This document shows, piece by piece, positions 15,163 through 23,383 of a stretch of 41,702 bases of DNA. The notes beneath the pieces are model-generated. The model was not told the DNA's origin and searched no databases. It saw only the letters and a list, made by a program, of their open reading frames with translations. The stretch lies in the NCBI GenBank assembly GCA_903927265.1, contig CAIYMF010000120.1, positions 1 through 41,702 on the forward strand, given 5' to 3'. Position 1 is the first letter of the stretch, and every line of letters begins with the position of its first letter. Origin of the DNA: an uncultured bacterium (lineage in GTDB: Bacteria > Actinomycetota > Actinomycetes > S36-B12 > CAIYMF01). A program made the position numbers and the translations under genes.

Positions 15163-15615
15163 CTACTGGTCAAGCAGACGCCATCCCATTTCCCAACGCC
15201 CGGGTTGCAGAACCCCCACGATCACCCACTCACTCGGAGTCCAGTGGAAGACGGCATTCTGACCGAACTGGCGAGCGAGGTCGATGACATCGTCGCCCGC
15301 CATTCCCTCGATCAGAAAACCCTCTTCCTTCCACTCTCCCCCGGCCTGACGACCCACCGTCTCGACCGGCGTCACTCCAGCCTCGAGAAGGAGACGGCGC
15401 ATCCGCTCGTGGCGTTGGGCGTTTTCGGCGCGGTCAAAAGCCACGCTGCCCGGATTACAGGCGGTAATCACCCACACCTCATCGGAAGCGAACGGCCATT
15501 CATCACTGCGGCCCGGTTCAGCGGCAGTGGCTGTGAACGGTGCCGCATCGTCGGGCATGACATCGAGAAGCGTCAGCGCATACTCCGACCAAATGTCGTG
15601 CTCGACCGGCCTCAC
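15163..15615 (-). CDS. DUF3293 domain protein
   Basis: A 150-aa cytoplasmic protein starting with GTG. The block VWVITACNPGSVAFDRAENAQRHERMRRLL, later GEWKEEGFLIEGM and ARQFGQNAVFHWTPSEW match the DUF3293 pattern (ITACNP, ExN, W-x-E, FGQNA). Function unknown. It begins 9 nt after the stop of the EAL response regulator and ends 34 nt before the desaturase start, so it is probably cotranscribed with both. Nothing in the sequence ties it to signalling beyond position. Confidence 0.82.
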   Translation of the reverse strand: MRPVEHDIWSEYALTLLDVMPDDAAPFTATAAEPGRSDEWPFASDEVWVITACNPGSVAFDRAENAQRHERMRRLLLEAGVTPVETVGRQAGGEWKEEGFLIEGMAGDDVIDLARQFGQNAVFHWTPSEWVIVGVLQPGRWEMGWRLLDQ

Positions 15616-15624
15616 TCGGTTCGC

Positions 15625-16824
15625 CTAAAACAGGGTTTCGGCTGTGCGAGCCCAGATACGGCAATGCTCAGCAAATTGGTCAGCAGACACAGGTGGGCTA
15701 AAGAGGTAGCCCTGCGCTCGTTCGCAACCCAAGTCGCGAAGTCGACGCAGGGTACGGGTGTCTTCGACGCCTTCGGCTACCACTTCAAGTCCGAGTTGCT
15801 GTGCCATCGCTACGGCATTGCGCACGATGATCCAGTCGCTGGCAGACCCGGCAACTTCGTCAGTGAGGAACGACCGATCGATCTTGAGTTCGCTGAAGGG
15901 ATACCACCGAAGCCGCTCGAGGTTCGACGAGCCGGTACCGAAATCATCAATAGCCAAACGGAATTCCATCAGGCTCAGACGCGTGATGACATCGAGTGCC
16001 ACCTCAGGTGCGCCCGACGTGGCCGTTTCAGTGATCTCAAGGGTCCACTGATGCGCGGGTGCAGCCTCAGTGAGGATCTCGTGCAGCATCGCAGGAAGCT
16101 CAAGGGATTCAAGATCGCGAATGGACACGTTGATTGCCAGGCACGGCAGCGCCGCAAGATCGGGGTTGGCCATCCGATCGGCCGCCACTTGGCGAGCAAC
16201 ATGCTCGAGTAACTCACCGGATGCACCCGACCGCTCCATTTCCGGAACGAACTGTGCAGGGCCGAGCGTGTAGTTTTCCCCGAGGTGCCAGCGCGAAAAC
16301 GTTTCGGCGCCTACCACCCGTCCGGTACGCAACTCGACAATGGGCTGGTAGGCCAATTGCACATCGCTGATGTGCATCTCGCCCACGCGGTCTTCGAGTT
16401 GCTGCTGGCTCATCGGGCTCTCGGAAGGCGACATCAGCGTGTCGCGGGCTTCGAGCAGTATCTGTCGTAGCGAACTAATCGCCAGCGGCTTAGGACACAC
16501 ACCGAGGACCTGCAAGCCGTACATTCCGGCCACCCGTTGGGCGCTTCCCAGCACCTTTTCAGGTGCTCCTGAAGCGACGATCACCGCTGACCCGGGCGCC
16601 TTCGTCGACAGCGCACGCATCGCACTCACGCCATCGTCACCGTCGAGAGTGAGATCGAGAATCGTCAGATCATGACCGCCGCCAAGCAACGCAGCGATAG
16701 CCAGCGAATCACTCGCTGTGTCGACCTCGAAACCGACACCCTGAGCAACTTCGCGGATGAGTTCGCAGATAGCGACCTCATCATCAACGATCAGAAGGCG
16801 GGGCCTGACAGTGCCATCAGGCAT
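15625..16824 (-). CDS. REC-EAL response regulator, probable c-di-GMP phosphodiesterase
   Basis: A 399-aa protein. An N-terminal receiver has the acidic pair VDDE, the phospho-acceptor Asp at about 57-59 in ILDLTLDGDDG and the Lys in CPKPL near 114. A C-terminal EAL domain follows from about 150. EAL residues present are AINVSIRDL, LEITETA, IDDFGTGSSNLERL, LKIDRSF, VVAEGVED and QGYLFSPP, so the metal and catalytic sites look largely intact. The signature itself reads GAETFSRW, so ETF replaces EAL. ATG at 16824 is chosen because AGGAGG lies 5 nt upstream; GTG at 16830 is an alternative. It overlaps the hybrid kinase gene by 8 nt, making that kinase its likely partner. Confidence 0.9.
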   Translation of the reverse strand: MPDGTVRPRLLIVDDEVAICELIREVAQGVGFEVDTASDSLAIAALLGGGHDLTILDLTLDGDDGVSAMRALSTKAPGSAVIVASGAPEKVLGSAQRVAGMYGLQVLGVCPKPLAISSLRQILLEARDTLMSPSESPMSQQQLEDRVGEMHISDVQLAYQPIVELRTGRVVGAETFSRWHLGENYTLGPAQFVPEMERSGASGELLEHVARQVAADRMANPDLAALPCLAINVSIRDLESLELPAMLHEILTEAAPAHQWTLEITETATSGAPEVALDVITRLSLMEFRLAIDDFGTGSSNLERLRWYPFSELKIDRSFLTDEVAGSASDWIIVRNAVAMAQQLGLEVVAEGVEDTRTLRRLRDLGCERAQGYLFSPPVSADQFAEHCRIWARTAETLF

Positions 16825-19819
16825 GTCCACCTCCTGCCTTCCCCCCGTCGCTTCCCGAACGTTGACTCACGCCGGGCCCTTCAGTTGCCTTCAGTGTGCC
16901 ACCATCTGTCTCAAACAGGACACGATAGAGGTCTTGACGACCGAAGGGTTTGGCGAGGGTCACCATTCCACGCCTCTGCAATTCGACCATGCGGTCGGAG
17001 AATCCAGTCATAAACACCACAGTGATATCGGGGTGGGCGATCAGAATGCGCGCTGCCACGTCGAGACCGTCGACATCGGCTCCGATATTCATGTCAGTGA
17101 GCAACGCGTCGGGGTTGAACTCCTCTGCCGCTGCGAGCGCTGATTCCATGGAGTCGGCGACTCTGACTTCAACCCCGCGTTCCTTCACCCACCCGGCGAC
17201 GAGCCCCGCCAGCGTCTGTTCGTCGTCAACGATCAGCACGCGTGAAATCGTGTTGCTACCTTCGGCAGCAGCGACGGCATCAACCGCCGCATCGCCGCCA
17301 AAGACGGCTGGAATGATGATGGAAACTGAAGCACCCATCCCAGGCTTCGACGAGATCACCGCGGTACCCCCGCTCTGACGAGCGAACGAGTAGACGCTGG
17401 CCAACCCGAGTCCTGAGCCTTGACCCACCGCTTTGGTCGAGTAGAACGGCTCGAAAGCGCGCACTGCCACCTCCGACGACATTCCTTCACCGTCGTCGAC
17501 AACCTCAATGACCACATAATCGCCCGCTGGCAGGTCGTCTTCGCCCGCGGAGTTTCTACGTCGCTGCGCGCTCAGCAGCACCGAGCCGCCCGGCTCGGTC
17601 GCGTCACGCGCATTAATCACAAGGTTGAGCAAGCTGCTCGACAGTTGACCAGGGTCAACCATCACATCGAGCGTGCCGTCGCCAATGCGTAGGTCGACGG
17701 TACGGTTCTCGCCGAGCGCTTGCCGTGCGAGCGGCATGATGCCATGCAGGAACGTTCCGACGTTGACAGCGCTAGCGTTCAGCGGCTGGCTGCGTGTCAC
17801 TGAAAGCAGCGATTTCGCGATCTCAGCGCCACGCTCGGCCGCATCACCCGCGTGAGCGACATAGCGTTCGAGATCGTCCTGACTACGAATACGCTCATCA
17901 CTTTGCATCAATTGCAAATAGCCGTTGATGATAAAGAGCAAGTTATTGAAGTCGTGCGCAAGACCTCCGGCCATCGCACCGAGCGCTTCAAGGCGCTCAC
18001 TCTGTGCGCTTCGCATCGCAGTACGTCGCGCATCAGTAACATCGATCACTTGCACTAGCGCAGCAGCGGACACATCCTCGCGATAGGCAACTGGTGTGGC
18101 CGCCACCTCGTAAATGTGCAAGGTGTCGTGGGAGACGCTATCGACACACTCGATCGTCGACTCATTGCCAGCGAGTGCTGACTCAAGCAGAGCCCGCACC
18201 TTGGGCAGATCTGAGTCGGACGGTACGAACGGCATGGCAGCCAATGCATGGCGGCCTACCAACGATTCCTGTGTTACCGCATCAATCTCGTTCGCCATCA
18301 CCACACTCTGCGAGCGGTTGATCAACATCACGAGTCCGGGGGACGACTCAATAGCGGCCGCGAGCAGCGCTTCACGCTGTTCAAGTGACCGCTGAATGCG
18401 GAAGCGTGAGTTAGTCGCCGTGAGGAACAGCAAGAGAACCACAAGGCCGATCAGTACTTCCCCCAGCAACGTGAGCATCTGCTGGAGTCGCGAAACACCG
18501 AGTCCGTCGGCTGCGGTGGCAGTGACCATGACGGGGATATCGCCCAGACTAATCGGATCAGGCGCGGAGACGGGCACGGCGCCGCTCTTCGGAGCGGGAC
18601 CGTAGCCAAGGGCTAACGGCGCAGTACCTGCTGGGGGGTCAACCTGATCGATCGAGAAGTGGATGTTTCCGGCGTCGGGGCCGACGTTGCGAATCGCATC
18701 AACCATGTTGACTGGCACTGACATGGCAACAGCGAGGAATTCGGGTGCGCCCTGCTCCTTGGACGCCTGCGGAACGACATACACCAGACTCGGCACTGAT
18801 TCGTTTTCAGCACCTGGGACGTTTCGAATACCCAGCAATACTGGCGCACCAGCATCGGCAGCCCGATTAATTGCCGCAGCATCGGCAGGATCGGCACCGA
18901 GAATCGACGCAAGCTTCAGCGTCGAGCCCTGTCGATCAATCTCGTATTTCATCGGGTGACTGTCACCCGTCAAGGGCCCCAACAGGGCCAAGGCAGAAAT
19001 CGAGGTGTTTCCGAGCAGGAGTGGTTGGTTTACTGCCGCGAACCCCGCTTGGTTCACAAAGGGAGTGCGAGGTGGCTCACCAGCGCGTGCGAGGTAAGCG
19101 TTGAGGTCGTCACCAAGCCCAGCGTCAAGAGCCGCCGATGCAGTCGCAGCGGCGGCCGAGAGAGTGTCTTCCTCTTGCTGAGCCCAGTAGACGGAGGTGA
19201 GATAGGGAGCGATCGCCATGAGCGCAATGACAATGAAACCCAACGAAAGTCGCGCCAGCCAGCGAGGCTGCCGCGAGACGACAGGGCGTGACCACGCGGC
19301 AGCGCCCAACATCACAGCCGCCAGCATCGGCACGAACCGTCGGAAGAACCTCACCCAGAAGTCACCGGTGTCGAGGAACTCAATGGGGCCGAAGTGATTG
19401 GCGAGCTGGAACAGCGTGCCAACGGCTGCAATGACGATGAGCAACACCGCGGCCAAAGCGAAACGCACGCTGGGAGGCGTACGCGGGGCACCCTTCAACC
19501 GGCGCAATACGATCGCGCACCCCACCGCCACTGCGACCGCGATGGCAAGACGAAGGATGGAAGCAGCGTCATTTCCGGAAACAACGACCGTGGTCAATGC
19601 CATGACGACAACCGCTACCACCGGATTGAGTCGCCGAACTGATTCGGCAAACACGACGATAAGAACGAGCACGTCGGCCCTGATGTATCCGGTCGTTTGA
19701 TGCGTGACCCATTCGGCACCGGCAGCAACCAACGCGACCAGGACAGCCAGAACCAGAGTTCGGAGCCGACCGTCTCGCTCTACCACATCGGCGGACGGTG
19801 TCTCAACGAGATCATTCAT
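16817..19819 (-). CDS. Hybrid sensor histidine kinase with membrane sensor, CHASE, PAS, HisKA, HATPase and receiver
   Basis: About 1000 aa; residues here are numbered from an ATG at 19840. N-terminal membrane helices span about 27-215. A CHASE-like extracellular domain covers about 220-435 (MKYEIDRQG, LGADPADAAAINRAADAGAPVL, PSLVYVVPQA). A helix at about 455-476 is followed by PAS at about 485-605. Kinase: His629 in GGLAHDFNNLL, N box NLVINARDA, DDGEGM and GSGLGLASVY. The terminal receiver has VDDE, Asp916 in LLTDMNIG and Lys964 in LAKPF. HDFNN marks the NtrB-like class. The start at 19819 is preferred since a G-rich ribosome-site-like stretch lies 9 nt upstream. The gene lies 48 nt after a secreted four-cysteine protein and overlaps the REC-EAL gene, so it probably senses an extracellular signal and feeds c-di-GMP turnover. 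Confidence 0.92.
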   Translation of the reverse strand: MNDLVETPSADVVERDGRLRTLVLAVLVALVAAGAEWVTHQTTGYIRADVLVLIVVFAESVRRLNPVVAVVVMALTTVVVSGNDAASILRLAIAVAVAVGCAIVLRRLKGAPRTPPSVRFALAAVLLIVIAAVGTLFQLANHFGPIEFLDTGDFWVRFFRRFVPMLAAVMLGAAAWSRPVVSRQPRWLARLSLGFIVIALMAIAPYLTSVYWAQQEEDTLSAAAATASAALDAGLGDDLNAYLARAGEPPRTPFVNQAGFAAVNQPLLLGNTSISALALLGPLTGDSHPMKYEIDRQGSTLKLASILGADPADAAAINRAADAGAPVLLGIRNVPGAENESVPSLVYVVPQASKEQGAPEFLAVAMSVPVNMVDAIRNVGPDAGNIHFSIDQVDPPAGTAPLALGYGPAPKSGAVPVSAPDPISLGDIPVMVTATAADGLGVSRLQQMLTLLGEVLIGLVVLLLFLTATNSRFRIQRSLEQREALLAAAIESSPGLVMLINRSQSVVMANEIDAVTQESLVGRHALAAMPFVPSDSDLPKVRALLESALAGNESTIECVDSVSHDTLHIYEVAATPVAYREDVSAAALVQVIDVTDARRTAMRSAQSERLEALGAMAGGLAHDFNNLLFIINGYLQLMQSDERIRSQDDLERYVAHAGDAAERGAEIAKSLLSVTRSQPLNASAVNVGTFLHGIMPLARQALGENRTVDLRIGDGTLDVMVDPGQLSSSLLNLVINARDATEPGGSVLLSAQRRRNSAGEDDLPAGDYVVIEVVDDGEGMSSEVAVRAFEPFYSTKAVGQGSGLGLASVYSFARQSGGTAVISSKPGMGASVSIIIPAVFGGDAAVDAVAAAEGSNTISRVLIVDDEQTLAGLVAGWVKERGVEVRVADSMESALAAAEEFNPDALLTDMNIGADVDGLDVAARILIAHPDITVVFMTGFSDRMVELQRRGMVTLAKPFGRQDLYRVLFETDGGTLKATEGPGVSQRSGSDGGKAGGGHA

Positions 19820-19867
19820 GGGCGGCATCCCCCACCCCATGTGCGATCGCCATGTGCTGCAAGTGGA

Positions 19868-20323
19868 TTAGCAGTACTTGCCGGCAATGTACGACGACAG
19901 CGCTGTGACGACTTTGCCGGTGCTGTCGGCGACCTTGACCCATGCCCAGTAGTACCGAGTGGTCGTCGATGTGGGGCAGTTGACCGTCAGTGCAGTGAGA
20001 CTCACCGTGGCGCTCTTGGCGACTGAGTAGGCCTTGGTGACCGAGTTGAGGACGGTACCGGCTGAGTTGCAGTTGTTCGCAGCGGTGCAGGCGGGCTTCA
20101 CGGCCGTCGATGTACGAACCAGTTGCACAGTCACCGAATATGTCGCGGTCACGGTCGCCGCATTCTTGAACGATCCACCCACCGAGAGCACGGAACTCTT
20201 CCACGCGGGGGTTCCGGCCTGAACGCTTGCGGGAGCAATGGCAGATGCGACTCCGACGGAAAGGAAGAGCGACACGAATGCCGTGACCAATCCCAGAAGG
20301 AAGATGCCCCGTTTGCTCGACAT
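19868..20323 (-). CDS. Secreted four-cysteine protein, copy 1 of a tandem pair
   Basis: A 151-aa protein with a Sec signal (GIFLLGLVTAFVSLFLSVGVASA) and a Ser/Thr/Val-rich mature domain. It matches the neighbour at 20438-20905 along its whole mature length: GSFKNAATVTATYSVTVQLVRT, then KPAC, NNC, LTVNC, TTTRYYWAWVKVAD and a terminal ALSSYIAGKYC. All four cysteines are shared, so two disulfides are likely; DsbB is encoded elsewhere in the window. I do not recognise a family. It is probably an all-beta domain, judging by alternating residues. The ATG lacks a ribosome site but has TAGTGT 6 nt upstream. It ends 27-48 nt before the CHASE kinase gene, on the same strand. Function unknown; an adhesin, a pseudopilin-like shell protein or a signal for the kinase are all conceivable. 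Confidence 0.85.
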   Translation of the reverse strand: MSSKRGIFLLGLVTAFVSLFLSVGVASAIAPASVQAGTPAWKSSVLSVGGSFKNAATVTATYSVTVQLVRTSTAVKPACTAANNCNSAGTVLNSVTKAYSVAKSATVSLTALTVNCPTSTTTRYYWAWVKVADSTGKVVTALSSYIAGKYC

Positions 20324-20329
20324 ACTTAC

Positions 20330-20335
20330 ACACTA
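20330..20335 (-). promoter_or_regulatory. -10 box of secreted copy 1
   Basis: TAGTGT on the minus strand lies 6 nt before the ATG of the secreted gene. No convincing -35 occurs at 16-18 bp, so activation may depend on the 24-bp element at 20368-20391. Confidence 0.4.
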
Positions 20336-20367
20336 CTCTCACGTCAAGCGTTCGGGAGGCTAATTGA

Positions 20368-20391
20368 GTGATCACTTCGTCACACTGTGTG
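20368..20391 (-). promoter_or_regulatory. Shared 24-bp upstream element, copy A
   Basis: On the plus strand this reads GTGAT, CA, CTTCGTCACACT, GT, GTG. It is identical to copy B at 20949-20972 at 20 of 24 positions and lies at nearly the same distance from its start codon (44 nt here, 43 nt there). It contains the dyad GTGA-N8-TCAC. It is likely a binding site for a shared transcription factor. Confidence 0.6.
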
Positions 20392-20437
20392 GTCACGCAA
20401 CGTCACCGCATCACGCGAGTGTGCGGGGGAACGCGGA

Positions 20438-20905
20438 TTAGCAGTACTTGCCAGAGAGGTAAGACGACAGCGCCGTGGCCACGTTTCCGGATGCGTCAGC
20501 GACCTTGATCCAGGTCCAGTAATAGCGCGTAGTGGTCGACGCAGCGCAGTTGACCGTCGTCGCGGTCACCGTCATTGTCGTTGCTTTCGCCACGGAATAC
20601 GACACAGCTCCGGAATTCTTCAACTGAGTCTGGGTCGTTGTGGTCGCGCAACCCGTCGCGACGACACATGTTGGCTTCGTGGCGGTGGCCGTGCGAATCA
20701 GTTGAAGTGTCACCGTGTACGTAGCGGTCACGGTGGCCGCGTTCTTGAACGACCCGCCACCCTTGAGAACTGATGACGACCAACTAGGTGTTGAACCCGC
20801 GACACTGCTCGGCATCACGGCCATTGCCGGACCCGCCGCGAGCACGCCGATTGCCGCCATTGAGGCAACTGCCCCAATGACTGAGGCGATTCGACGGCTC
20901 TTCAT
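20438..20905 (-). CDS. Secreted four-cysteine protein, copy 2 of a tandem pair
   Basis: A 155-aa paralog of the protein at 19868-20323. It has a different Sec signal (MKSRRIASVIGAVASMAAIGVLAAGPAMA) but a matching mature part: GGSFKNAATVTATYTVTLQLIRT, KPTC, TGC, TTVNC, STTTRYYWTWIKVAD and ALSSYLSGKYC. The central stretch between the second and third cysteines differs most, with TTTTQTQLKNSGAVSYSVAK here. The leaderless promoter is good: TTGGAA and TAACTT with an 18-bp spacer, and the ATG 6 nt beyond. The 24-bp element lies just upstream. The conserved C-terminal cysteine at the very last residue is unusual and suggests the C-terminus is pinned by a disulfide. Function unknown. Confidence 0.85.
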   Translation of the reverse strand: MKSRRIASVIGAVASMAAIGVLAAGPAMAVMPSSVAGSTPSWSSSVLKGGGSFKNAATVTATYTVTLQLIRTATATKPTCVVATGCATTTTQTQLKNSGAVSYSVAKATTMTVTATTVNCAASTTTRYYWTWIKVADASGNVATALSSYLSGKYC

Positions 20906-20911
20906 GGCTTA

Positions 20912-20941
20912 AAGTTACCACACGGATACACGAAGTTCCAA
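20912..20941 (-). promoter_or_regulatory. Promoter of secreted copy 2
   Basis: TTGGAA (20936-20941) and TAACTT (20912-20917) on the minus strand with an 18-bp spacer; the ATG is 6 nt beyond the -10, so the message should be leaderless. Confidence 0.55.
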
Positions 20942-20948
20942 CAACTCC

Positions 20949-20972
20949 GTGATTGCTTCGTCACACTCCGTG
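20949..20972 (-). promoter_or_regulatory. Shared 24-bp upstream element, copy B
   Basis: On the plus strand it reads GTGAT, TG, CTTCGTCACACT, CC, GTG. It ends 8 bp upstream of the -35 box of secreted copy 2, a position suited to an activator. See copy A at 20368-20391. Confidence 0.6.
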
Positions 20973-20992: not shown

Positions 20993-21007
20993 TGGTCAAC
21001 TAGACCA
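20993..21007 (-). terminator. Weak hairpin after the GH3 gene
   Basis: TGGTC and GACCA pair around a 5-nt loop, 23 nt beyond the GH3 stop. On the minus strand they are followed by TTTCGTT, a partial U run. It is a possible short terminator separating the GH3 gene from the secreted pair. Confidence 0.35.
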
Positions 21008-21030: not shown

Positions 21031-22665
21031 TCAACCGATCGTGCGCGTGACATCGCTCGGAATTGGCACCTCAAGTTCGAGCAACCGCAACTTGATTTGT
21101 GCCCTCGAGACCCCCGGCCGCAACTGTCGTTCGTAGAGGCGGTCTTGCCAACCGGCTGCCATCACGAGCACTCGCGGCGGCACGATGAGCCCTTGCGCGC
21201 GGAAAATGGGGTAGGCCATTCCGGCTCGTTCTAGTGCGGCATCCACTCGCTGCACGATGTCGTCAGGAAAAGGCGCCGACGATTCGGCGAGTTCAACACA
21301 CAGGTCGTAACCATGCCGGTCGTAATCGGTGACCACCGTGAAGTGACGCACGTTGACTCCGGCGTCGGCGAACATCGCGGTGAGCTCTTTGAGCAAAGAA
21401 CCGCCCGCGATCTTCTCCCCCGCGATGTTGGCGATGTCCCCGGCTTTCGACTCGAACACGATGTTGGGGTTTGTTCCAGTGAATCCGTCAACGCGGACGA
21501 GATCATGCATGTCGTATCGGAACAGACCGGCGTACGACGTGGTGATGACTTGGTACACGCCACCGTCAGTGAGTTCATGTGCAAGAAGTGGCTCACCACC
21601 ATCGATCGCAATGAACTCGAGGAACTGCGCGGCAAGCGCGACCGGTCCCGCCGCTTTACCAACGACAAGCGGCACATTGAAGCGACCTTCGCTCGCGCCG
21701 TAACCAATGTCGAAACGCACCACGTCATCAGGAACTTGAGCAGCGAGGTCTGCCATGTATCGGCCGACTGACCCTGAGAGCCAGAACACCAACCCGCGCA
21801 AACCTGGCCATGCCGAACCGGCGTCGAGAGTGCCCCGCTCAGTAATGGCCGCGGCTAGCTCATCGGCCCGCGCGGGATCGGGTGCGAGTTGCAGTGAATC
21901 GAGGAAGGCGCGATCGGCCTTCACCGAGGCACTCACCGTTCCGTTGCGAATGTCATCGATAAGTTCGTCTCGACGCGCATTGGCATCGTTGAGCAATGCA
22001 CTCAACCGGCCGGGGTTGTTTCCTCGTACCGCGCGAACGTCTTTCATCAGCGCCGTGCGCATGATCAAGTAGTCGACATCTTCAGCAGCATCAACGTTTT
22101 CCAAGATTGACAACGGGTATGCGAGACGGTCAGGGCCAAGGGGTGGCGCATAGGTGAGGTTACTTCCTGACGCTGAACCACACGGAATTCCGCACTCGCT
22201 ATCCCAGAACACCAACCTGTTTGCGAACGTGAGGATCGCTCCTGACTCGCGAAGACCAGGCACAGCATCGGCCAATGCTTGCGCACGCAGGTCGCTGGTC
22301 GCTTTCTTAGCCGCCATGGCTGCTGCAGATTCGGGAATATGCTTCGCCGCGCCCGTGGTGCCACTGGTGAGCACAAAGAAGTCAGGGGCACCCGCGAACG
22401 TGATGTCGGTCTCGCCTCGCTGCATACGTTCAGAAGCTTCTGCGTAGTCATCCCACGACGTGACAGGAACTCGTTCGCGAAAGTCTTCAACGCTGCGCAC
22501 CTCATTGAAGTAGTGGCGGCGGCCCCACTCGGTGTCGCGCGACTTTGCCACGATGTCGAGCAGCACCTCATGTTGCACGCGCTCAGCGTCGGCACACATC
22601 GTCGCGAACTCATCGAGTTTCGCCGCACCCTCAGCGGTTCCAATGATCTCGGTGGGGCTATTCAC
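21031..22665 (-). CDS. GH3 family acyl-adenylating enzyme
   Basis: A 544-aa protein of the GH3 family (named from plant auxin-responsive acyl-acid amido synthetases) within the adenylate-forming superfamily. The phosphate-binding loop is FVLTSGTTGAAKHIP at residues 97-111. YGASEGRFNVP, SYAGLFRYDMHDLVRV and FESKAGDIANIAGEKI correspond to the other adenylation motifs. It should activate a carboxylic acid with ATP and join it to an amine or another nucleophile, but bacterial substrates are mostly unknown. The GTG at 22665 has GGAGG 6 nt upstream. It lies 51 nt after vapC on the same strand, though read-through is uncertain. There is no signal peptide. Confidence 0.9.
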   Translation of the reverse strand: MNSPTEIIGTAEGAAKLDEFATMCADAERVQHEVLLDIVAKSRDTEWGRRHYFNEVRSVEDFRERVPVTSWDDYAEASERMQRGETDITFAGAPDFFVLTSGTTGAAKHIPESAAAMAAKKATSDLRAQALADAVPGLRESGAILTFANRLVFWDSECGIPCGSASGSNLTYAPPLGPDRLAYPLSILENVDAAEDVDYLIMRTALMKDVRAVRGNNPGRLSALLNDANARRDELIDDIRNGTVSASVKADRAFLDSLQLAPDPARADELAAAITERGTLDAGSAWPGLRGLVFWLSGSVGRYMADLAAQVPDDVVRFDIGYGASEGRFNVPLVVGKAAGPVALAAQFLEFIAIDGGEPLLAHELTDGGVYQVITTSYAGLFRYDMHDLVRVDGFTGTNPNIVFESKAGDIANIAGEKIAGGSLLKELTAMFADAGVNVRHFTVVTDYDRHGYDLCVELAESSAPFPDDIVQRVDAALERAGMAYPIFRAQGLIVPPRVLVMAAGWQDRLYERQLRPGVSRAQIKLRLLELEVPIPSDVTRTIG

Positions 22666-22716: not shown

Positions 22717-23139
22717 CTAGAGCAACAGCAAAGAGACGGTGTCGTATCGACTGAATCCCCGATCGAAGGACACCAGAGTGGCGTCGAGATCACGTGCAGC
22801 GGCAGCCAGCAACACATCCGGAACGGCGTCACCACTGGCGGCGTGAGCAGTGAGCAATTCGGTGAAGATGCGCCAACGAGACTGCCCGGGAGTGAGATGG
22901 TGCACCACTGGCGACGCCAGGAGCACCTCAAGGAAGGTCACCGCTTCGGCGATCGCACTCGGTGACTTCCAGATGCGTCGATTGGTCACAATGCGAAGAA
23001 AGCTCGCTGCGACTTCAGTGAGCACGACGACCGTCTCGTCAGCTGCGCGAGCACTACCCAACCACCCTGTAGCAGCCTGATGTGCAGGGTGATCGGCGCG
23101 AAAAGCGGCGACTAACACATTGACGTCAACGCACAGCAT
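22717..23139 (-). CDS. vapC: VapC-type PIN domain toxin
   Basis: A 140-aa PIN ribonuclease, toxin of a type II pair. The acidic site is complete: Asp5 in MLCVDVNVLVAAF, Glu42 in LTEVAASFLR, Asp104 and Asp108 in SGDAVPDVLLAAAA, and Asp126 in VSFDRGFSRYD. The block of histidine and aromatic residues after SPVVHHLTPG fits the subfamily with the family label TA_02315-like PIN proteins. Start at the ATG at 23139; the frame is open to 23289, but that extension overlaps vapB. It overlaps the antitoxin gene by 14 nt, typical of coupled translation. It is expected to cleave specific RNA when the antitoxin is lost. Confidence 0.88.
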   Translation of the reverse strand: MLCVDVNVLVAAFRADHPAHQAATGWLGSARAADETVVVLTEVAASFLRIVTNRRIWKSPSAIAEAVTFLEVLLASPVVHHLTPGQSRWRIFTELLTAHAASGDAVPDVLLAAAARDLDATLVSFDRGFSRYDTVSLLLL

Positions 23140-23383
23140 CGAGTGGCCGGTCGCTATCGAGCGCCGTGCGCACCGACGTCGAATCCATGATGTCGACCCC
23201 AGCCACCACGCCACCCGTCGAGCGCGAGACAGGCAACGCAGGAATTGCCACAGGAGCCACTGGTTGATGCAACGCAACGCGCAGGGCATCCTCGATGAGG
23301 GAGGTCATCGAACGCCCGCGCGCTGCCGCGGCGGTCTTGAGATCACGAAACAATTGGTCGTCGAGAACGAGCGTGGTACGCAT
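23126..23383 (-). CDS. vapB: VapB-type ribbon-helix-helix antitoxin
   Basis: An 85-aa protein. MRTTLVLDDQLFRDLKTAAAARGRSMTSLIEDALRVAL is a ribbon-helix-helix DNA-binding domain of the MetJ/Arc type. The C-terminal half (VAIPALPVSRSTGGVVAGVDIMDS) would thread into the PIN toxin's site. TAATCT lies 6 nt before the ATG, so the operon is probably leaderless, and an AT-rich dyad at 23386-23409 sits right on this promoter, fitting autorepression. The aldehyde dehydrogenase gene is divergent 61 bp away. Confidence 0.88.
   Translation of the reverse strand: MRTTLVLDDQLFRDLKTAAAARGRSMTSLIEDALRVALHQPVAPVAIPALPVSRSTGGVVAGVDIMDSTSVRTALDSDRPLDAVR

Follow-up and report, generated by a model that had tools for sequence, protein, structure and literature searches.

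A predicted secreted Ig-like protein family linked to an unclassified membrane sensor in candidate c-di-GMP signalling units of one actinobacterial order

Introduction

Two described systems come closest to the locus reported here. One is the YfiR-YfiN system (YfiBNR/TpbB) of Pseudomonas and other Proteobacteria. YfiR is a soluble exported protein with four conserved cysteines; by acting on the periplasmic PAS domain of a membrane diguanylate cyclase, it represses that enzyme (PMC3375315). The outputs of such systems have been exchanged among GGDEF, GGDEF-EAL, HPT and histidine kinase modules, and one reported system of this type combines two YfiR homologs with a hybrid kinase (PMC3375315). 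YfiR corresponds to PF13689 and has a fold like that of ABC-type binding domains (PMC4655355). In Actinobacteria, the secreted protein HbpS, a GAF-like octamer able to bind iron, haem and cobalamin, modulates the membrane sensor kinase SenS, and the output through SenR is transcriptional (PMC4991794).

The locus lies in a stretch of 41,702 nucleotides from an uncultured actinobacterium, referred to below as the window. It encodes two small, putatively secreted proteins (sec1 and sec2, "sec" for the family), a membrane sensor kinase and a REC-EAL regulator. YfiR-YfiN is similar in joining a small exported four-cysteine protein to a membrane sensor with modular output, and is the closest mechanistic parallel of the unit. 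It differs in that the secreted proteins here are modelled as all-beta Ig-like sandwiches and are found in actinobacterial genomes. HbpS-SenS-SenR of Streptomyces likewise joins a secreted actinobacterial protein to a sensor kinase; here, however, the sec proteins are modelled as Ig-like and the predicted output of the unit is c-di-GMP turnover. Our literature search found no description of this arrangement of sec and sensor, which does not exclude one in print. A third point of comparison is offered by CHASE sensors, membrane-flanked extracytoplasmic domains carried by histidine kinases and GGDEF-EAL proteins.

Results

Organization of the unit

The four genes lie on the minus strand in the order sec2, sec1, hybrid histidine kinase, REC-EAL, with a GH3-family gene upstream and a DUF3293 gene and a fatty-acid desaturase gene downstream (Pfam):

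20438..20905, minus strand: sec2, predicted secreted Ig-like four-cysteine protein of 155 aa; signal-peptide-like N terminus at residues 1-29 (by eye)
19868..20323, minus strand: sec1, predicted secreted Ig-like four-cysteine protein of 151 aa, modelled in its mature part as a sandwich of 8 strands (pLDDT 81)
16817..19819, minus strand: hybrid sensor histidine kinase, with a conserved ATG at 19819 (longest ORF from 19840); in order, several TM segments, an extracytoplasmic domain of ~220 aa, a TM segment, PAS (weak), HisKA (weak), HATPase and REC
18512..19189, minus strand: sensor domain of the kinase, predicted extracytoplasmic, near residues 218-443 of the 1007-aa longest ORF; limits approximate, from TM positions of the sister protein and alignment
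15625..16824, minus strand: REC-EAL response regulator, predicted c-di-GMP phosphodiesterase; ATG at 16824 (longest ORF from GTG 16830)

ORF calls bear out the positions and strand that an earlier note on this DNA had given for the four genes, and its 48-nt gap between sec1 and kinase and 8-nt overlap between kinase and REC-EAL are reproduced with starts at 19819 and 16824. We prefer 19819 (MNDL...) to 19840 as the kinase start because this ATG is retained in the sister genome, G001, which has a 48-nt gap between sec1 and kinase as well.

The HATPase, REC and EAL domains all score above the Pfam cut-offs, HATPase_c and Response_reg in the kinase, EAL (E 5e-55) and Response_reg in the last protein of the unit; HisKA and PAS_4 fall below cut-off in the kinase. 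By pattern, the kinase contains HDFNN, NLVINARDA, DDGEG, GQGSGLG, VDDE, TDM and KPF, and thus the H-box, the N and G boxes and the receiver Asp and Lys of a predicted hybrid histidine kinase. The regulator contains AETFSRW, INVS, LEITE, DDFGT, LKID and AEGVE. Its EAL motif is written ETF and the remaining motifs, whose residues we take to be the catalytic ones, are present, so that the protein combines the fold and catalytic motifs of an EAL phosphodiesterase and is predicted to act as one.

Three neighbouring genes deserve brief mention. The DUF3293 gene (15163-15615, minus) starts 9 nt after REC-EAL and is not among the ORFs called there in G001; it is perhaps a gain or loss inside a conserved block. 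The GH3-family protein (21031-22665, minus) matches OlsH (lyso-ornithine lipid synthetase) with 71 of 620 bits (E 7e-20), far below the equivalog cut-off. A VapBC-like toxin-antitoxin pair occupies 22717-23383 (minus), a PIN-domain protein preceded by a ribbon-helix-helix protein (Pfam).

The sensor domain

The sensor had been described as CHASE-like, a label that we could not establish. Pfam returned no CHASE match (PF03924) in the window kinase at E up to 1, 5 or 10, and of the ten sensors of this family none exceeded the curated CHASE cut-off of 25 bits; one (G008) gave a sub-threshold match (E 0.098; in the genome search E 0.025, 15.6 bits). Proteins above the cut-off occur in 26 of the 162 genomes of the order searched for them, and the window genome, G000, has none even at E 10. 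When the sensor was compared by hhalign with 16 CHASE domains (of 30 fetched loci), the corresponding segment aligned at E 0.15, or E 0.11 after trimming. The trimmed score of 16.9 was higher than 19 of 20 column shuffles, the highest shuffle reaching 20.6. Judged by sequence, the domain may be analogous to CHASE or a very distant relative. What it shares with CHASE sensors is a membrane-flanked extracytoplasmic domain of ~200 aa on histidine kinases and GGDEF-EAL proteins.

A profile search with the sensor against PDB sequences returned two argininosuccinate lyases (E 8e-4) over ~50 positions, which we took as a chance match. The structure model of the kinase ectodomain (pLDDT 44) was too poor to search with.

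The secreted proteins

Both sec proteins have four cysteines and an N-terminal segment resembling a signal peptide. They are paralogs, 57% identical, and are each other's sole matches in G000 at E <= 0.001. Pfam assigned neither to a significant family, and their matches to DUF7927 and DUF11-type families were weak or below cut-off. In the annotated sec proteins one hydrophobic segment was called early in each sequence and none elsewhere. The family is Ser/Thr-rich (by eye) and present in 1-3 copies per unit. In an alignment of 14 rows R71, C120, Y129 and C155 (sec2 numbering) are invariant, and only one pair of cysteines is common to all rows; in an alignment of 15 rows R70, Y125 and C151 (sec1 numbering) are invariant, the other cysteine being placed differently by the aligner in two rows. 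A disulfide likely joins the last two cysteines.

Mature sec1, modelled from seven sequences (window, L054 and L055), is predicted to form an eight-strand all-beta structure (pLDDT 81, pTM 0.75; the five models ranged from 81 down to 56). In Foldseek and VIA-align comparisons it matched GH2 sandwich domains (E 2e-4) and a transglutaminase sandwich (Z 10.4, rmsd 2.8 over 104 residues), in both cases as partial matches of large enzymes. The sec profile gave weak matches to VH and nanobody chains among PDB sequences (E 0.36 and higher), with which an Ig-like fold agrees; its top row was an esterase (E 0.24), aligned over the signal segment. We predict, from the model, that the secreted protein is an Ig-like sandwich, a common fold that does not indicate function. 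CsgC/CsgH were rejected as relatives on their low Foldseek TM-scores (0.43-0.44).

The four cysteines and predicted export recall YfiR. However, sec1 and sec2 have no match to PF13689 by Pfam at E up to 1, nor is that family among the 10 matched by the 14 members of the sec profile (A1) at E up to 5, in searches whose HMMER filters drop most weak matches. No YfiR chain occurs among the 7 PDB sequences matched by the sec profile at E up to 10. YfiR was also not among the matches listed in fold searches with the sec1 model, which by itself excludes nothing. By the Pfam test, then, the sec proteins do not appear to be YfiR.

Linkage of sec and sensor genes

Profiles built from the secreted proteins (A1, 14 members) and from the N-terminal 480 residues of the kinase (A2) were searched over 166 genomes of the order. 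The sec family was found in 10 genomes as 17 rows, which represent 16 genes since two rows are parts of one gene at contig ends in G010. The sensor was found as 10 genes in 9 genomes, all among the 10 with sec. Every sensor gene (10/10) adjoins a sec homolog, in keeping with the conserved synteny that the earlier note had proposed to look for. In nine cases sec lies directly upstream on the same strand, with gaps of 19-102 nt at the chosen starts (the contig start truncates the G010 gene, and for G016 the gene was taken from the reading frame). In the tenth, G008, three tandem sec genes (L018 9292-10688, gaps between copies of 10 and 16 nt) are divergent from the kinase.

Conversely, 15 of the 16 sec genes are beside this sensor. 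The other belongs to G015, a genome without a sensor match, and is located downstream of a PAS-GGDEF-EAL gene (843 aa) for which no TM segment was called. The expectation that homologs should not stray from such a kinase therefore holds for 15 genes and fails for this one.

Seven of the ten sensors lead into an HK-REC output (G000, G001, G008, G009, G010, G016 and G017) and three into PAS-PAS-GGDEF-EAL. A REC-EAL gene is adjacent in 6 of the 7 HK-REC units; none was seen at G016, where the contig ends ~750 bases downstream. G009 has both sensor types, each with its own type of sec. Because the output is swapped while sensor and sec stay together, sec travels with the sensor half across two output types. 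An anatomy like that of YfiR-YfiN, with a small, predicted-exported cysteine protein beside a sensor of interchangeable output, is thus indicated at 10/10 sensors.

The sister genome G001 repeats the gene order sec2, sec1, kinase, REC-EAL of the window, and its unit is likewise flanked by GH3 (91% identical) and desaturase (97%) genes. Among the nine loci annotated, some cut by contig ends and two shorter than 8 kb, these neighbours were recognised only in G001; the unit therefore persists where the neighbourhood differs. Of the 17 genomes from the family of the window genome, 9 have sec and 8 have the sensor, each of these 8 being among the 9 with sec (hypergeometric p 3.7e-4, uncorrected for kinship, the related genomes not being independent). 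Nine of the ten sec genomes belong to one family, and all ten to one order.

As a control we used a rule that asks for an ORF of 90-260 codons on the strand of the sensor, with its end close to the sensor start, an early hydrophobic stretch and none later. It fired at 7 of 10 sensor loci and, among 25 true-CHASE loci from this order, at 2. The three misses were G010 (contig edge), the HK-type locus of G009 (gene present, rule failed) and G008 (opposite strand). In 23 of 25 cases, then, CHASE sensors of the order differ from this sensor in having no small secreted ORF by the rule, with the proviso that four control loci offered only ~450-520 bases upstream of the sensor frame, where longer ORFs could be missed. 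The two positive CHASE loci have a 93-aa ORF and a 166-aa ORF without cysteine, neither resembling sec by eye. L084 (cut by a contig end) and L094-L097 (below cut-off) were left out of the 25. Taken together, the argument from sequence for a functional link between sec proteins and sensor is strong.

Two further features were seen at these loci. A tRNA-Val gene (anticodon tac; L024 9499-9572, minus; ARAGORN) lies directly upstream of the distal sec copy in G017. Right after the second sensor gene (GGDEF-EAL) of G009 there is a 218-aa, lipoprotein-like, cysteine-containing ORF (L019 15419-16075), which the profile search did not place in the sec family.

Searches outside the order

Among 394 genomes of the class (order members included), clear sec proteins and clear sensors were each found in 7, all members of the order; the remaining rows, G270 (sec) and G277 (sensor), were short and weak. 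Among 396 genomes of the phylum, clear sec proteins occurred only in G000, with three others at E 5e-4 to 1e-3. These searches scored few candidates in each genome (at most 9 or 4), and more distant members could have escaped them. No confident member outside the order was found in these samples, and the set therefore stands at 10 genomes. With sec2 as query, plasmids gave no match, nor did viral contigs in a single-query search that detects close relatives only.

Several candidates were rejected. The G270 row lies in long membrane-protein-like frames, and that of G277 spans 69 of 456 positions of a membrane protein. By reading of the protein type, the G691 row falls in a 192-aa exported-type frame that lacks the C-terminal cysteine, the G631 row in an exported-type frame of 453 aa whose repeats are different, and the G801 row in a frame lying opposite a helicase-like ORF. 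The G045 candidate has in-frame stops and lies over an ABC-transporter-like ORF.

Transcription and upstream elements

Candidate elements upstream of the sec genes are as follows:

20912..20917, minus strand: -10-like TAACTT at -12 from the sec2 ATG, leaderless-type promoter element
20330..20335, minus strand: -10-like TAGTGT at -12 from the sec1 ATG, leaderless-type promoter element
20949..20966, minus strand: shared upstream motif GTGTGACGAAnnnATCAC, 18 nt, before sec2
20368..20385, minus strand: shared upstream motif GTGTGACGAAnnnATCAC, 18 nt, before sec1
20993..21007, minus strand: weak terminator-like stem between the upstream GH3 gene and sec2, also formable in the sister genome (by eye)

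Leaderless genes in Actinobacteria usually carry TANNNT at about -12. This element stands exactly at -12 in 10 of 16 sec starts and at -13 in G010, as against 6 of 3190 ATG/GTG triplets in the window. It is absent from five: the two inner copies of G008, G015 (two starts tried), G016 and the upstream copy of G017, whose start is uncertain. None of nine kinase starts, some of them uncertain and G016 left out, has TANNNT between -16 and -8. A scan with the sigma-70 consensus found no promoter on the minus strand. A strong transcription stop between 19868 and 19819, which would have spoken against a single unit, was not found: neither pattern nor folding revealed a terminator-like site between sec1 and kinase. 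Weak terminator-like sites in the region are at chance level in number. Since the -10-like elements are at sec and not at kinase starts, and with no terminator-like site between them, the kinase is probably transcribed from the sec promoter.

Exact matches to GTGTGACGAAnnnATCAC in whole genomes occur only at sec1 and sec2 in G000 and only before sec2 in G001, and give no sign of a wider regulon in these two genomes. When as many as 2 mismatches are allowed, the sites number 8 in G000 (2 for the backwards pattern) and 5 in G001 (3 backwards). The two copies are in register, with a spacing of 581 nt against 582 nt between the starts, and the motif was perhaps just inherited with the gene duplication; retention by selection is possible. 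A CRP/GlxR-type operator was rejected, as the dyad GTGA-N8-TCAC is spaced differently from operators of that type. In two other genomes, G014 (L021 3900) and G006 (L023 3854), the sec genes share an upstream TTCACTCTCTTGAC-N4-TCAAGAATG (by eye), unlike the window motif.

Co-diversification and selection

For comparison of the two families one sec per sensor was used: sec1 in G000 and G001, the first copy in G008, the kinase-proximal copy in G017 and the C-terminal piece in G010. Identity matrices of sec and sensor are correlated (Mantel rho 0.49, p 0.0045, 10 pairs; 0.42, p 0.013 without G001). This should be interpreted with some caution, as the test is small and partly reflects species descent, sec identities of 18-25% between genomes being near alignment noise. 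Sensors are mostly 20-46% identical across units. The HK-type sec of G009 is nearest to the HK sec of G010 (27%, sensors 46%), G017 following closely (25%), and its GGDEF-EAL-type sec to those of G014 (38%) and G006 (31%), the sensors sharing 26% in both cases. Within G009 the two sec proteins share 19% and their sensors 23%. Both trees group the GGDEF-EAL-type member of G009 with G014 and G006 (support 0.994 and 0.979) and the HK-type member with G010 (0.786 and 0.999); elsewhere they disagree, G016 and G017 being placed differently. Linkage at all ten sensors, these largely congruent trees and the promoter layout support the claim, made from the window alone, that the genes form one signalling unit.

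When G000 is compared with G001, mature sec1 (dN 0.065, dS 0.86) and the kinase ectodomain (dN 0.058, dS 1.00) are each 89% identical, whereas mature sec2 is 63% identical (dN 0.305, dS 2.07, saturated). The sec1 signal segment is 37% identical, REC-EAL 93% and HK-ATPase 94%. On these estimates mature sec1, next to the kinase, is under purifying selection like the ectodomain, and sec2 is not so constrained.

Discussion

That sec is nearly always beside one kind of membrane sensor hints at a hitherto undescribed pair of secreted protein and receptor. We favor, with modest confidence, the reading that the sec proteins are extracytoplasmic, input-side partners of the adjacent sensor that would bind it. 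Two lines of evidence incline us to this view. First, sec follows the sensor and not the output. Secondly, the proximal copy is conserved like the ectodomain. Linkage alone would fit a ligand or regulator just as it would fit a surface protein under shared regulation; it is the swapping of outputs that favors the input side.

According to our hypothesis, the sec proteins would be exported and fold with a disulfide, and would then bind the kinase ectodomain, or carry or present a signal to it. Their action would shift the kinase/phosphatase balance, in a direction that we leave unspecified. The kinase would phosphorylate its own REC and the REC-EAL protein, and c-di-GMP would be lowered; in three homologous units the same sensor would drive a PAS-PAS-GGDEF-EAL enzyme directly. 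The arrangement would work like YfiR-YfiN or HbpS-SenS, with a secreted protein from another family.

Some observations count against a partner of the sensor. The fast evolution of sec2 would also fit a surface protein, and the sec of G015 has no sensor and lies by a PAS-GGDEF-EAL gene without a called TM segment. Both would fit a view of the sec proteins as the output instead: proteins of the surface or matrix that the neighbouring c-di-GMP circuit causes to be made or released, and that do not regulate it. A richness in Ser and Thr (by eye), the predicted Ig-like fold and a copy number of 1-3 per unit, together with an exact upstream motif common to sec1 and sec2 and found nowhere else in the genome, would also suit such a role. 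However, sec tracks the sensor half and not one output type, sec1 is as conserved as the ectodomain, and the sec promoter appears to drive transcription of the kinase. We consider this explanation unlikely, if still a serious one.

The sec proteins could also be diffusible cell-to-cell signals, quorum- or kin-sensing ligands read by the sensors of neighbouring cells. They are small, with only one early hydrophobic segment called, and tandem diversified copies that co-diversify with a sensor suit the specificity of ligand and receptor; the tests made here fit a cell-bound partner too, and we regard diffusible signalling as rather improbable. That sec and sensor are neighbours merely through vertical inheritance or by chance, with no functional link, as might be argued from cases all in one order and from 9 of 10 genomes in one family, is very improbable given that the linkage holds across sensors of mostly 20-46% identity, different neighbours, swapped outputs and a divergent arrangement, that sensor and sec co-occur within the family (p 3.7e-4, uncorrected for kinship), and that only 2 of 25 CHASE-sensor controls satisfy the neighbour rule.

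An extended form of the partner reading can be put forward tentatively, and we would sooner doubt than endorse it. The undescribed secreted Ig-like family may consist of dedicated, co-diversifying ligands or antagonists of an unclassified sensor, an independent counterpart of YfiR-YfiN, in which tandem copies would tune or individualise c-di-GMP signalling, perhaps between cells.

To our knowledge, the extracellular inputs of most c-di-GMP enzymes are unknown. A secreted protein that travels with one type of sensor offers a concrete, purifiable candidate input together with a matching receptor domain, and what the sensor sees therefore becomes directly testable. If our interpretation is true, the accessory-protein design of YfiR-YfiN would have arisen a second time from other parts.
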